From Deltaproteobacteria bacterium GWC2_55_46 (GTDB lineage Bacteria; Desulfobacterota; GWC2-55-46), in assembly GCA_001595385.3 (NCBI GenBank), contig LVEI03000001.1:124001-188000 (forward strand): DNA of 64,000 bases, written 5' to 3'. Positions 40,855 through 48,310 of this stretch are shown here, piece by piece (the first letter of the stretch is position 1; each line of letters opens with the position of its first letter). Below the pieces are notes generated by a model. That model saw only the letters and a list, made by a program, of their open reading frames with translations. It was not told the DNA's origin and made no database searches. The translations under genes and the position numbers were made by a program.

Positions 40855-42201
40855 TCATGCGGGGCTGAGATTATATTTCGTGATGAGCTTTGAGAGGTAC
40901 TGGCGGCTTATGCCAAGCTCTGCGGCTGCCCTTGCGACATTCCATTTGCTCCGCGACAGCGCTTCCTGTACCATCCTTCTTTTAAAGAGGTCCCTGGCCT
41001 CGGCCAGCCCCATGCTGTTTTTCTTTGGCGCGTCAAAAGCGATGGCTGGTATCCCCAGGTCGGCGCCGCTTATTTCGGACTTGTTGAAGAAGATGACGGC
41101 CCGCCTGACCCTGTTCTCAAGTTCCCTGACATTCCCATGCCACCGGTACGACTTGAGATACCCTACGCACTCTTTGTCAAATCCGCGTACAGGCTTGTTG
41201 AACTCCCTTGAGTGTTTTTTTAGGAAGTACAGGGCCAGCAGGTAGACGTCATCGCCCCTGTCCTTGAGCGGGGGCACTTCAAGCGTTATGACCCCGATCC
41301 TGTGGAGGAGCTCTTCGCTGAACTCGCCGCTCCGGGCCATTGCGCGTAAATCCATAGCCGTAGAGGATATGACCCTTACGTCGATGCTTGTACGCCCGTT
41401 TGAATCGGGTCTTTCGATCGCGTGCTCGCGAAGGACCCTCAAAAGACGTCCCTGAAGGGACAGGCTCAAGGCGCCGACCTCTTTCATATAGATAGTCCCG
41501 CCGTCCGCCTGCTCGAACCTGCATTTCCTGCCGTGCCTCCCGTCGCCATTCAAGCCGAAGAGCTCGTTTTCAAGCTCCTTATGAGGGGTGCCGGCGCAGT
41601 CGACGGATATAAACTGCATGGCATGCCTTATGCCAAGCCTGTGCATGGCCCTTGCGGCTGTCTCTTTGCCGGAGCCATGTTCCCCGGCGATCAGCGCGGG
41701 TATGTTCACCTCCGCCGCCTTCCGAATGGTCCGGAATACCTCCTGCATCGGCGCGCTTACACCGATCATCTCATTTGGCCAGCCTGCCCCGGAAGAGGCG
41801 CTGAGGTGTTCGGCCTGCTGCCTGTATGAGAGCCATCCCCGCTTGAGCGTGACCCTTACTTCGTCGATAGATACCGGTTTTGTGAAATAATCGAAAGCGC
41901 CGAGATCGAGCGCCCTGAAGGCCTCCTGCCTCTCGTCTAGCCCTGTTATTATGACCGCCTTGAACAGGGGGTTAATGGAGAGTATCTCCCTTATGGCAGT
42001 CATGCCCTCCGAAGGCTCCAGCGGGGCTGGAGGCAGGCCGAGGTCTATCACGCCGAGCTGGGTCTCCTGCTCGCGCGCGACGCGCAAGGCCGCACCCCTG
42101 GTCTCTGCCTCAAGCACTTCGTAGTCCCTGCAGAAGGCCCATCGCATCTGCCCCCTTACGGTCTCGTCGTCATCGAGGACCAGCAGTCTCGGCTTTGTCA
42201 T
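40855..42201 (-). CDS. Degenerate PrsR-type sigma-54 response regulator
   Basis: A 448-residue paralog of the PrsR at 43532. The receiver domain looks functional (Asp53, Lys108). The AAA+ domain (about 145-370) keeps Walker A GEHGSGKE at 173-180, but the GAFTGA loop is replaced by LNGDGRHG (217-224). The Walker B aspartate is replaced by Lys240 (GGTIYMKEVG). The Fis-type helix-turn-helix at the C-terminus (NVARAAAELGISRQYLSKLI) is good. It therefore probably binds DNA but cannot hydrolyse ATP normally or open sigma-54 promoters. The frame is intact over its full length, so it is not a pseudogene. It follows the UDP-sugar dehydrogenase by 11 bp. Confidence 0.88.
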   Translation of the reverse strand: MTKPRLLVLDDDETVRGQMRWAFCRDYEVLEAETRGAALRVAREQETQLGVIDLGLPPAPLEPSEGMTAIREILSINPLFKAVIITGLDERQEAFRALDLGAFDYFTKPVSIDEVRVTLKRGWLSYRQQAEHLSASSGAGWPNEMIGVSAPMQEVFRTIRKAAEVNIPALIAGEHGSGKETAARAMHRLGIRHAMQFISVDCAGTPHKELENELFGLNGDGRHGRKCRFEQADGGTIYMKEVGALSLSLQGRLLRVLREHAIERPDSNGRTSIDVRVISSTAMDLRAMARSGEFSEELLHRIGVITLEVPPLKDRGDDVYLLALYFLKKHSREFNKPVRGFDKECVGYLKSYRWHGNVRELENRVRRAVIFFNKSEISGADLGIPAIAFDAPKKNSMGLAEARDLFKRRMVQEALSRSKWNVARAAAELGISRQYLSKLITKYNLSPA

Positions 42202-44901: not shown

Positions 44902-46206
44902 TCAGCTCGCCCGCGAGGCGGTGTAACGCCTGTTTACGTTAGGGAACTTTAGCGTGAACCTTGTACCAGACCCTTCCTCGGTCTCTACCTCGATAAGTCC
45001 TTCGTGTGCCTCCATTATGGTCTTGCATTGATAGAGGCCCACCCCGAACCCGTTGCTCTTGGTCGTCATGAAAGGCCTGAAAAGGCCCTTTTCAAGGAGC
45101 GCCTGCGGGATACCGGTGCCGGTATCCGAGATCCTTACACAGATGAAATCATCGCCTGGCTCGAAAACGGCCCGTATCTCACCATGCGAAGCTGCATCAT
45201 GCGCGTTCATGAGGATGTTAAAGAAGACGGTCTCCACCGCTTCGGCGTCTATGCTGCACAAAGGCAGCGGGCCGTCCGATTTTATCAGGACGCGGGAGGC
45301 CGCAACGGATGAGAGCCTCTTGACCGCCCTGTCAAATGCCGTCAGGAGATCGTTTTTGGCTGGACATATCTTCATGGAGCCCGCCCCAGCCGCCATCTTT
45401 TCTACAAGTGCCTTCATCTTTGCAACCGTTAAGTCGATCGCCTTTATGGCCTCTCTCTGGAACTCTGGGCTCGTGATATTGGACCTCGCGTTGTGGCTTA
45501 AAAGGGAGAGCGAATTGGTGAAGTTCTTGAGATCATGCATTATGAAAGAGGACATGCGGTTGAACGAGTCGGTCTCCCTGATGTCAAGGAGGGCCTCGCT
45601 CAGCCTTATGTTCTTTATTTGCACCGCCGCCTGTGTGGCTACGGCCCTTAGAAGGTCCATGTCGGCGCTTGCGTAAGTCCTGCCATCAGCTGAGGGCCCC
45701 AGGATGACAAACCCGACGAGTTCCCTGTTCGCGATGAGCGGCGCGCAGATACAAGAGCGTGCTGAATTGAAAAGCGGCCCGAGACCTGTTTCATCAGATG
45801 ACCGGTCTTCTGATCCGGTGATCTCAAAAGGGGCGGCGGCAGAGAGCATATGCTCGATGAGGCGTCGCGACTCAGGGACGCGCCTGAACCGATAGTCTAT
45901 CCTGGATGATGTCGAGATGTAGCACCTTGATGCCTGGTCATGGAGCCAGACGTTTACCGCCGTGGCCCTGAGCGTTGAGCCTATCATCGCCGAGAGCACC
46001 GACTTCACTTCGCCGGTCTCCATGCGTGAGCTTATTTTTTCCGTGGCCTCCAGCCATTTTTTCTTGTAATCGTGCCTGCTGGCGTTGAGCCAGCCCCTTT
46101 TTTCCAGGGCTTTCCGCAAAGCCCCGGAAGAAAGCATTCTATGAGCAACGGCCGTCACAAACAGCGTGGTCGTGATAGCTGTAATAAGTTTGAGCGCCTC
46201 TTCCAT
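44902..46206 (-). CDS. prsK: Short PrsK-like sensor histidine kinase
   Basis: A 434-residue kinase with one N-terminal membrane segment (about residues 5-24), a GAF domain (about 65-205), a phospho-acceptor helix FIMHDLKNFTNSLSLL (His224) and a HATPase domain (NAHDAASHGE, RISDTGTGIPQALLEKGLF, GFGVGLYQCK). The HDLKN box and following residues are characteristic of PrsK. Full PrsK proteins are much longer, with many N-terminal membrane spans; here that part is absent, so any sensing would be cytoplasmic through GAF. It directly precedes prsR and is divergent from the Fn3/PKD protein gene. Confidence 0.87.
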   Translation of the reverse strand: MEEALKLITAITTTLFVTAVAHRMLSSGALRKALEKRGWLNASRHDYKKKWLEATEKISSRMETGEVKSVLSAMIGSTLRATAVNVWLHDQASRCYISTSSRIDYRFRRVPESRRLIEHMLSAAAPFEITGSEDRSSDETGLGPLFNSARSCICAPLIANRELVGFVILGPSADGRTYASADMDLLRAVATQAAVQIKNIRLSEALLDIRETDSFNRMSSFIMHDLKNFTNSLSLLSHNARSNITSPEFQREAIKAIDLTVAKMKALVEKMAAGAGSMKICPAKNDLLTAFDRAVKRLSSVAASRVLIKSDGPLPLCSIDAEAVETVFFNILMNAHDAASHGEIRAVFEPGDDFICVRISDTGTGIPQALLEKGLFRPFMTTKSNGFGVGLYQCKTIMEAHEGLIEVETEEGSGTRFTLKFPNVNRRYTASRAS

Positions 46207-46211
46207 TTTTA

Positions 46212-46243
46212 GGTCACCCCGTGTACCCCGTGACGAAGGTCAC
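46212..46243. promoter_or_regulatory. Inverted repeat GTGAC-N4-GTCAC with extra half-site
   Basis: GTGAC (46230-46234) and GTCAC (46239-46243) form a symmetric site, and a further GGTCAC lies at 46212-46217. It sits in the divergent gap between prsK and the Fn3/PKD gene, a likely place for an operator. A possible -10 (TAAAAT, 46266-46271) for the plus-strand transcript follows. The binding protein is unknown. Confidence 0.4.
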
Positions 46244-46291
46244 ATACCAAGGCATCTCTCTTTTGTAAAATGACCCCGAAAACTCAGCTTT

Positions 46292-46413
46292 ATGGAACCA
46301 TCCTTTGCTCATGGCTAACCACCGGAAACCGTGGGGCGCAGAGCAACGGGACTAAAGAAGTTGGCGATACCTTCCCCGCTCATATAGCTCACACTCGAAA
46401 AACCAGCTTCCAT
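46292..46413 (+). ncRNA. Candidate GEMM-I-like cyclic-di-GMP riboswitch
   Basis: The leader contains the ordered core of the GEMM-I aptamer as I know it from Vc2. ATGGCTAACC (46311-46320) is followed by a hairpin with a GAAA-containing loop (46319-46334), then GGGGCGCAGAGC (46333-46344; consensus GCGCAAAGC) and CGGGACTAA (46347-46355, tetraloop-receptor-like). The last helix pairs GAGC/GCTC (46341/46387), CGGG/CCCG (46347/46375) and GAAG/CTTC (46357/46371), ending at ATAGC. The base equivalent to G20 of Vc2 is G, which favours c-di-GMP over cGAMP. The outer stem is weak (ATGGAA / TTCCAT, 46292/46408). An intrinsic terminator follows as a possible expression platform. Confidence 0.58.
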
Positions 46414-46423
46414 GTCCGCCGTG

Positions 46424-46459
46424 CCGCCAAAGGACGCCATCCTTGAGGCGGTTTTTTTT
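46424..46459 (+). terminator. Leader terminator before the Fn3/PKD gene (possible riboswitch platform)
   Basis: The stem CCGCC (46424-46428) plus AAGGA (46430-46434) pairs with TCCTT (46440-46444) plus GGCGG (46447-46451) and is followed by eight T. It ends 24 bases before the ATG, while GGAGGAGGAAG comes after it. The terminator must therefore be read through, or be disrupted, for the gene to be expressed. Confidence 0.82.
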
Positions 46460-46483
46460 CGAGAAAAACGGAGGAGGAAGCAA

Positions 46484-48310
46484 ATGCCAAAATTTTTAAA
46501 GCTCCTGGTGCTGTCAGCCGCCCTGGCCATCGGGGCAGTTGTTGCTGCGCCTGTAGCGGCCCTGGCGGGAGAGGCCAACCTTACCTGGTCGGCCCCCGGC
46601 ACAAATACAGATGGCTCGACGCTTGTGAACCTGGCCGGGTACAAGGTCCATTACGGCACACAGTCAGGGGCCTATTCAACGACGGTAGACGTCGGCAACG
46701 TGACTTCCTACAATGTCGCAAGCCTTTCAAACGGCTCCTATTATTTCGCCGTAACAGCCTACAACACAAACGGCAAGGAGAGCGCCTACTCCAATGAGGG
46801 CTCGAAAGCAATAGCCAATGACGTCACGGCCCCGGTGATATCCGGCGTATACTCTGGCTCGATAACCGCCGATACAGCGGTTATCAACTGGATGACGGAT
46901 GAGGCGTCAACCAGCCAGGTCGAATACGGCCTGACAGCTTCTTACGGGTACTCGACAACGCTGGATACGGCCGCACGCACTACCCACAGCCAGACCATAA
47001 ACGGCCTTGCCGCTGATACGACCTATAACTTCAGGGTAAGGAGCGTTGACTCGACCGGCAACGCGGCCATATCCGGGAATTACACCTTTAAGACGGAACC
47101 TCCGGCTGATACGGCCCCCCCTGTCATTTCAAACGTCCAGGTAACCGATATAACTTCCACGTCGGCTGTGGTCAGCTGGACAACCGACGAGCTTGCCACC
47201 TCACAGGTCGAATTCGGAACGAGCGGCTCGTATTCCGCCTCTACCCCTATTAAGACCGCTCTCACGACAGTCCACTCGGTCCTTGTGGACGGCCTCCAGA
47301 GCTTCACCACATATGACTTCAGGGCCGTCTCATCAGACGCCGTTGGCAACAACGCCACCTCTGAGGGCATGACCTTCGTAACATCCAACCAGGCGCCTGC
47401 CATCAACAACCTGAGCGCTTCAGCGCTCTCAGGCATAGCACCGCTCCAGGTGGACTTCACGGCTGAAGCCGTTGACCAGGACGGCTCGATTGTGAGCTAT
47501 GAGTGGGATTTCGACGGCGACGGCGTCTATGAGTACAACTCCGGGGCGCTCTCTTCAGCCTCCTATACCTACCAGAACGTCGGCACTTATCCGGTAAAGG
47601 TGAGGGCGACAGACAACGGCGGCGCTGTAGCGGTCTCGGAGCCTTTGAGCATCTCTGTAGAGTCGGCGGTCAACAAACCCCCGGTCGTGGTATCGATACT
47701 CGGGACAGTGGTCCAGAACGGCTCCACAGTTTCGATAACCTTTGACGTACAGGCATCCGACCCCAACGGCGTCATCGTCCAGTTCGCATGGGACTTTGAC
47801 GGCAACGGCACGGTGGACGCTGTAACAAGCACTGCGCCAGCCCTTTATACGTACAGTTCGTCGGGCACATACAGCCCGGTGGTCACCGTGACCGACGACC
47901 AGGGCGGTATAGCATCTGCCGCCACGACAGTGACAGTACCTGAAGCGGCTACTGTCTCCGGCGCGTCCATATCGTCGCCTGGCAGCAGCTCTGGCGGCGG
48001 CGGTGGCTGTTTTATCGCCACGGCGGCCTACGGCAGCTATCTGGAGCCTGAGGTCATGGCGCTGAGGGATTTCAGGGACAGCGTCCTCATGCAGAACCCG
48101 CTCGGAAGGTCCTTTGTGAAGGCTTATTACAGGGTCTCTCCGCCTGTTGCCGACTTCATAGCAAGGCACGAAACACTCCGGGCAGCTACGAGGATCGCGC
48201 TTACGCCTATAGTCTACAGCGTCAAGTACTCAGGGCCGGCTGCGTCATTCGCCTTCCTGGCGATAGGTTTCGCGGCAATCGCCCGTATGAACAGAAAGCG
48301 GACGCGTTAA
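46484..48310 (+). CDS. Secreted Fn3/PKD surface protein with CFI-box C-terminal tail
   Basis: A 608-residue exported protein with a signal peptide (cleavage near AALAG). Three fibronectin-III-like domains follow (about 30-125, 128-225, 228-322; the second and third share [12 protein letters not shown] / [12 protein letters not shown]), then two PKD domains (about 325-412 and 415-495; [18 protein letters not shown]). A Ser/Gly linker leads to the CFI box [14 protein letters not shown] (Cys509) with the conserved block after it. The end is a short hydrophobic segment and RKRTR. This tail layout is that of a sorting signal. ATG 46484 follows GGAGGAGGAAG. It is the only plus-strand gene in a long minus-strand region and lies beside the exosortase. 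Confidence 0.92.

Follow-up and report, generated by a model that had tools for sequence, protein, structure and literature searches.

The leader of the Fn3/PKD surface-protein gene in the window (the whole stretch of 64,000 nucleotides that was analysed) is a bona fide member of the c-di-GMP-I family RF01051. We infer with good confidence, from its pocket bases and its alternative folds, that it acts as a class-I c-di-GMP (GEMM-I) riboswitch and as a transcriptional ON switch. The element adds a member to an already known class; what makes it interesting is that one orthologous leader shows a natural A20/G20 switch. Class membership, anatomy, conservation, the mutual exclusion of P1 and the terminator and the identity of the pocket bases were computed directly.

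In a relaxed Rfam scan of positions 46100–46600 (501 bases), RF01051 matched 46303–46431 on the forward strand with a score of 52.1 bits (E = 2.1e-9), which exceeds the gathering score of 35 bits and bears out the GEMM-I-like leader proposed in the preliminary description. A fuller search of the whole 2.79-Mb genome returned the family at the identical place (E = 2.7e-9) and found no second copy. The fast gathering-mode Rfam scan of all 64 kb of the window gave no RF01051 match, and a search with stricter filters across 97 genomes overlooked the genome's own copy, probably because of the insert in P3, which is 45 nt long in the window and up to about 50 nt in the family. Members built with such long P3 inserts can thus escape fast Rfam scans. 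A PADLOC run gave no match. The features of the leader and the gene, on the forward strand (+) and with Vc2 numbers according to our own mapping, which was checked against the clan's Rfam consensus, are as follows.

46230–46243, +: CRP/FNR-type palindrome GTGACGAAGGTCAC, then ATACC; its centre lies 32 nt upstream of the midpoint of the −10 element
46266–46271, +: probable −10 element TAAAAT (alignment A1; TACAAT in most relatives)
46301–46307, +: P1 5′ strand, UCCUUUG, pairing with 46428–46434 (7 bp)
46301–46310, +: predicted anti-P1 helix, 5′ strand UCCUUUGCUC, with its partner at 46341–46351 (unconstrained folds and RNAalifold consensus)
46313, +: equivalent of Vc2 G20, a G (Rfam alignment and relatives)
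46319–46334, +: P2, with the GAAA tetraloop at 46325–46328 and a C-C mismatch (46323/46330) in the window genome
46340, +: equivalent of A47 (RF01051 alignment)
46341–46351, +: predicted anti-P1 helix, 3′ strand GAGCAAcGGGA in J2/3–P3 (unconstrained folds and pairing in the family)
46342–46424, +: P3, pairing 46343–46353 with 46415–46423, an extended stem 46357–46364/46403–46410 and a long distal insert common to the family
46424–46459, +: intrinsic terminator, stem 46424–46434/46440–46451 and T8 at 46452–46459 (−14.2 kcal/mol)
46427, +: equivalent of C92 (alignment of related leaders)
46428–46434, +: P1 3′ strand, CAAAGGA, which doubles as part of the terminator 5′ arm
46470–46486, +: Shine–Dalgarno sequence GGAGGAGG; ATG start codon at 46484
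46484–48310, +: secreted protein of 608 residues with Fn3, PKD and CFI-box-CTERM matches (Pfam, NCBIfam), the signal peptide being judged from the sequence

The aptamer extends over 46300–46434, with its 3′ half at 46411–46434, and its P1, P2 and P3 helices around the junction are supported by the relatives. Canonical pairs fill 93.9% of the aptamer-structure cells in 14 leaders, and eight pairs are changed on both sides compared with 1.9 in shuffles, none of the 500 shuffles scoring as high; values were far lower when the structure was slid along the alignment as a control. P1, earlier regarded as weak, has its seven base pairs and two double compensatory changes among relatives. The preliminary description had listed an ordered set of elements, of which GGCTAACC (46313–46320), the GAAA loop, GCGCAGAGC (46336–46344) and CGGGACTAA (46347–46355) were placed correctly. 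The remaining element, ATAGC, was rejected as the aptamer 3′ half, as it lies (in ATATAGC, 46382–46388) within the variable, non-core P3 insert and is not conserved. The J2/3 segment reads GCAGAG in the window rather than GCAAAG, and GCAGAGC, once taken for an imperfect or divergent match, is no random drift, being the form usually found in this bacterial class. The GAAA tetraloop is accompanied by CUAAAG...CAUG, which aligns to the P3 receptor region of the model, and the two may form a tertiary contact. The ligand-contact bases are all present: the G at the G20 equivalent that had been pointed out before (46313), A47 (46340, A) and C92 (46427, C). Judged from sequence, these pocket bases predict c-di-GMP as the expected ligand.

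The P3 insert also holds, at 46365–46402, a moderately conserved CTCACATTCGA-like stretch. A role of the insert in sequestering the Shine–Dalgarno sequence was considered and rejected, since its complementarity is overall not above that of dinucleotide shuffles (mean z −0.66; p = 0.22 for the window); such complementarity is present in some relatives and is strongest in G001, G027, G007 and G049.

The terminator, described previously as following the leader, is indeed present; it overlaps the aptamer and is not merely downstream of it. Its 5′ arm and the P1 3′ strand share 46428–46434, so that the two structures are mutually exclusive. The stem contains a 1 × 2 internal loop, and this loop and the absent −35 element explain why a simple promoter/terminator scan listed neither the terminator nor a sigma-70 pair. 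Equivalent terminator hairpins occur in relatives, whereas the T run has disappeared from the leader of G003, the closest relative, a loss which indicates that the expression platform is not fixed. RNAalifold without constraint returned the anti-P1 helix plus the terminator, and unconstrained folds of single leaders gave anti-P1 in most leaders. In the 14 leaders 97% of the anti-P1 cells are paired, and its core (GCUC with GAGC or GAGU) is retained in nearly all related leaders of the subtype within the class; its covariation is statistically weak, with one pair showing a double change. In G049, a U-to-C change at position 6 of P1 is matched by A-to-G changes in both alternative partners, a triple change that fits a three-strand exchange, seen in this one case only.

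For the window leader up to the end of P1, the aptamer fold (−33.5 kcal/mol) and the anti-P1 fold (−34.7 kcal/mol) are about equal in energy. Once the terminator is made, anti-P1 plus terminator (−48.4 kcal/mol) is better by 7.9 kcal/mol than the alternative (−40.5 kcal/mol), a shift which implies that the ligand must act earlier, keeping the gene ON. In these folding models the energy pattern is the layout of a ligand-dependent antiterminator. In the absence of ligand, the P1 5′ strand would pair with J2/3–P3 as the anti-P1 helix, and the P1 3′ strand, left free, would build the terminator. c-di-GMP bound among G20, A47 and C92 would instead hold P1 and P3 and thereby block the terminator, and RNA polymerase would then reach the surface-protein gene. 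The pilM GEMM-I switch of Geobacter is turned ON through the same exclusion of aptamer and terminator (PMC9262584). Some members of GEMM-I, such as Cd1, are OFF switches (PMC9262584), and ligand binding could in the same way promote termination here. This arrangement is highly improbable, as the terminator requires the P1 3′ strand that is occupied in the bound aptamer, and we found no anti-terminator that could compete with that terminator when ligand is absent.

A CRP/FNR-type regulator probably controls initiation as well; we infer it from the site at 46230–46248 (GTGACGAAGGTCACATACC), located at about −41.5 on the assumption that transcription starts 7 nt after the −10 element. No good −35 element was found at this promoter. 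The half-site GTCACATACC is nearly invariant and nearly constant in spacing in 13 leaders of the family, and GTGAYNNNNGTCACATACC has a single exact copy in the genome. The only copy of the 46230–46248 site with one mismatch (G000:C1:2358383-2358401; L205, L289) lies ∼54 nt upstream of the −10 element of a gene encoding a Ser/GGDEF (Hypr-type) domain (L101). A similar palindrome is found at the corresponding place in G019 (L292) and is absent in G003, G007, G021, G023 and G026. On these sequence matches, the surface-protein gene and the L101 gene may possibly share a regulator.

In every one of the five other members of the genus (G001–G005) and in seven genomes from four other genera of the family (G007, G019, G021, G023, G026, G027 and G028), the orthologous gene has the leader in front of it, in line with the conservation that was to be expected of a functional leader in relatives with the same gene. 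The window copy is the sole copy in its genome and scores 131 bits with model R1, compared with 142–153 bits for its congeners; it carries two changes that are absent from them, namely the C-C mismatch in P2 and a U in J1/2 (GGCUAACC), the latter also present in L189 of G037. The CRP-like box is moreover kept in front of the orthologs L054 and L056, both of which lack a riboswitch. These features would suit a GEMM-I aptamer in decay that has ceased to respond to ligand, in which case the CRP/FNR-type site and a constitutive terminator would set transcription. We regard such decay as very unlikely, because the pocket bases, P1, P3, the tetraloop and the terminator are all intact and each of the six genus genomes keeps the leader despite divergence of the insert and the flanks.

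The downstream protein matches the CFI-box-CTERM model of NCBIfam with 110.9 bits at its C-terminus, and no NCBIfam model for a PEP-CTERM sorting signal matched at E 0.001, a search that short signals can escape. Its gene stands alone on its strand between the PrsK-like and exosortase genes. Among the leader-bearing orthologs examined, the PrsK-like kinase gene is found on one side in ten out of ten and the exosortase gene on the other side in eight out of ten. The proposed link to an exosortase is not supported in a strict sense, as the exosortase gene is on the opposite strand and the C-terminal match is to CFI-box-CTERM instead of PEP-CTERM; the exosortase/PrsK/PrsR-like neighbourhood is nevertheless conserved in most orthologs. 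A second PrsR-like response regulator is encoded near the PrsK/PrsR pair (40855–42201; 395 bits to TIGR02915, for which the cut-off is 502.6). The relatives that encode the full-length protein are mostly metagenome genomes, several of them from groundwater.

Position 20 separates the genus from its relatives. It is G in all six genus members and A in every related leader of the GCAGAG subtype from other genera (23 distinct ones), including those of the seven non-genus genomes with the ortholog. In the protein tree, which contains five of the six genus members, the G20 leaders form one clade (support 98/98) nested among A20 leaders. An A at this position is the base of the cGAMP-selective GEMM-Ib switches. 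The Hypr signature consists of a Ser at the specificity position of a GGDEF domain with an intact GGDEF motif (PMC6456294). Among the 12 GGDEF matches of the window's own genome, two are Ser/GGDEF (Hypr-type, GHxxGS) domains (L097 and L101), and one or two per genome also occur in the five relatives checked (L107, L125, L131, L140, L145, L153, L159 and L164 complete the set for the six genomes). These putative makers of cGAMP accompany G20 and A20 leaders alike. Of the two marks of GEMM-Ib, the host thus appears to possess a Hypr-type cyclase, and the leader has G rather than A at 46313.

The A20 of all leaders of the subtype outside the genus and the Hypr-type cyclases in every genome checked leave some room for a cGAMP switch of the GEMM-Ib type, or a switch with two ligands, in which the remaining pocket still prefers 3′,3′-cGAMP despite G20, and the base at position 20 is a selectivity factor and no hard filter (PMC9262584). 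This is unlikely nonetheless: G20 is common to all six genus members as one well supported clade and is therefore a fixed change, not noise. Furthermore, A20G by itself shifts the selectivity of the Geobacter Gmet_0970 GEMM-Ib switch from cGAMP to c-di-GMP (PMC6456294), and in Desulfobacca aptamers the G or A at the selectivity base tracks the ligand preference (PMC9481103). As the window leader has G20 within an otherwise A20 subtype, its preference for c-di-GMP may be incomplete.

On the sequences compared, the simplest history would be that A20 changed to G20 once, at the base of the genus; the deepest state may have been a different one, since a more distant ortholog carries a G20-type aptamer. 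The latter, in bacterium BMS3Bbin05 (L215, 2846–2926), is a different GEMM-I aptamer (G20; RF03167, 58.9 bits); it is accompanied by a terminator of its own and by a CRP-like palindrome, and lies before an ortholog of 47% identity. That the conserved surface-protein gene had an ancestral cGAMP-sensing leader, which this one change turned into a sensor of c-di-GMP with Hypr-type cyclases persisting on both sides, we put at slightly below an even chance.

With RF01051 the window leader shares the P1/P2/P3 architecture, the GAAA tetraloop, the G20/A47/C92 pocket and a score above gathering; it differs in its long P3 insert, its GCAGAG J2/3 and the conserved partner of anti-P1. The 3′,3′-cGAMP switches of Geobacter (GEMM-Ib; pilM, Gmet_0970 and GSU1761) are similar in that pilM is likewise a transcriptional ON switch with exclusive aptamer and terminator, the window's host has Ser/GGDEF cyclases and the orthologs of the sister genera have A20, whereas G20 is found in the window and throughout its genus. 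The c-di-GMP-I-GGC family (RF03167) belongs to the same clan, within which it matches several leaders of the genus best. Membership in it was rejected, since the position of A47 is a G in its model and an A in the window (46340), and the genus leaders reach 46.5–56.1 bits, below the gathering score of 59. In Desulfobacca acetoxidans, closely related c-di-GMP-I/c-AMP-GMP aptamers differ at the G/A base with a matching shift of preference (PMC9481103). There, several aptamers reside in one genome, whereas the present case is one orthologous leader across genera.

Most known specificity variants of riboswitches form separate classes or occur as multiple aptamers within a single genome. In the present family a single leader, with one gene and one neighbourhood, carries a clade-specific selectivity base, so that one can test directly how ligand specificity evolved and how it is linked to the cyclase repertoire. 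For the lineage, which is little studied, the leader predicts that a conserved Fn3/PKD surface protein encoded beside PrsK/PrsR-like and exosortase genes would be under cyclic-dinucleotide control.
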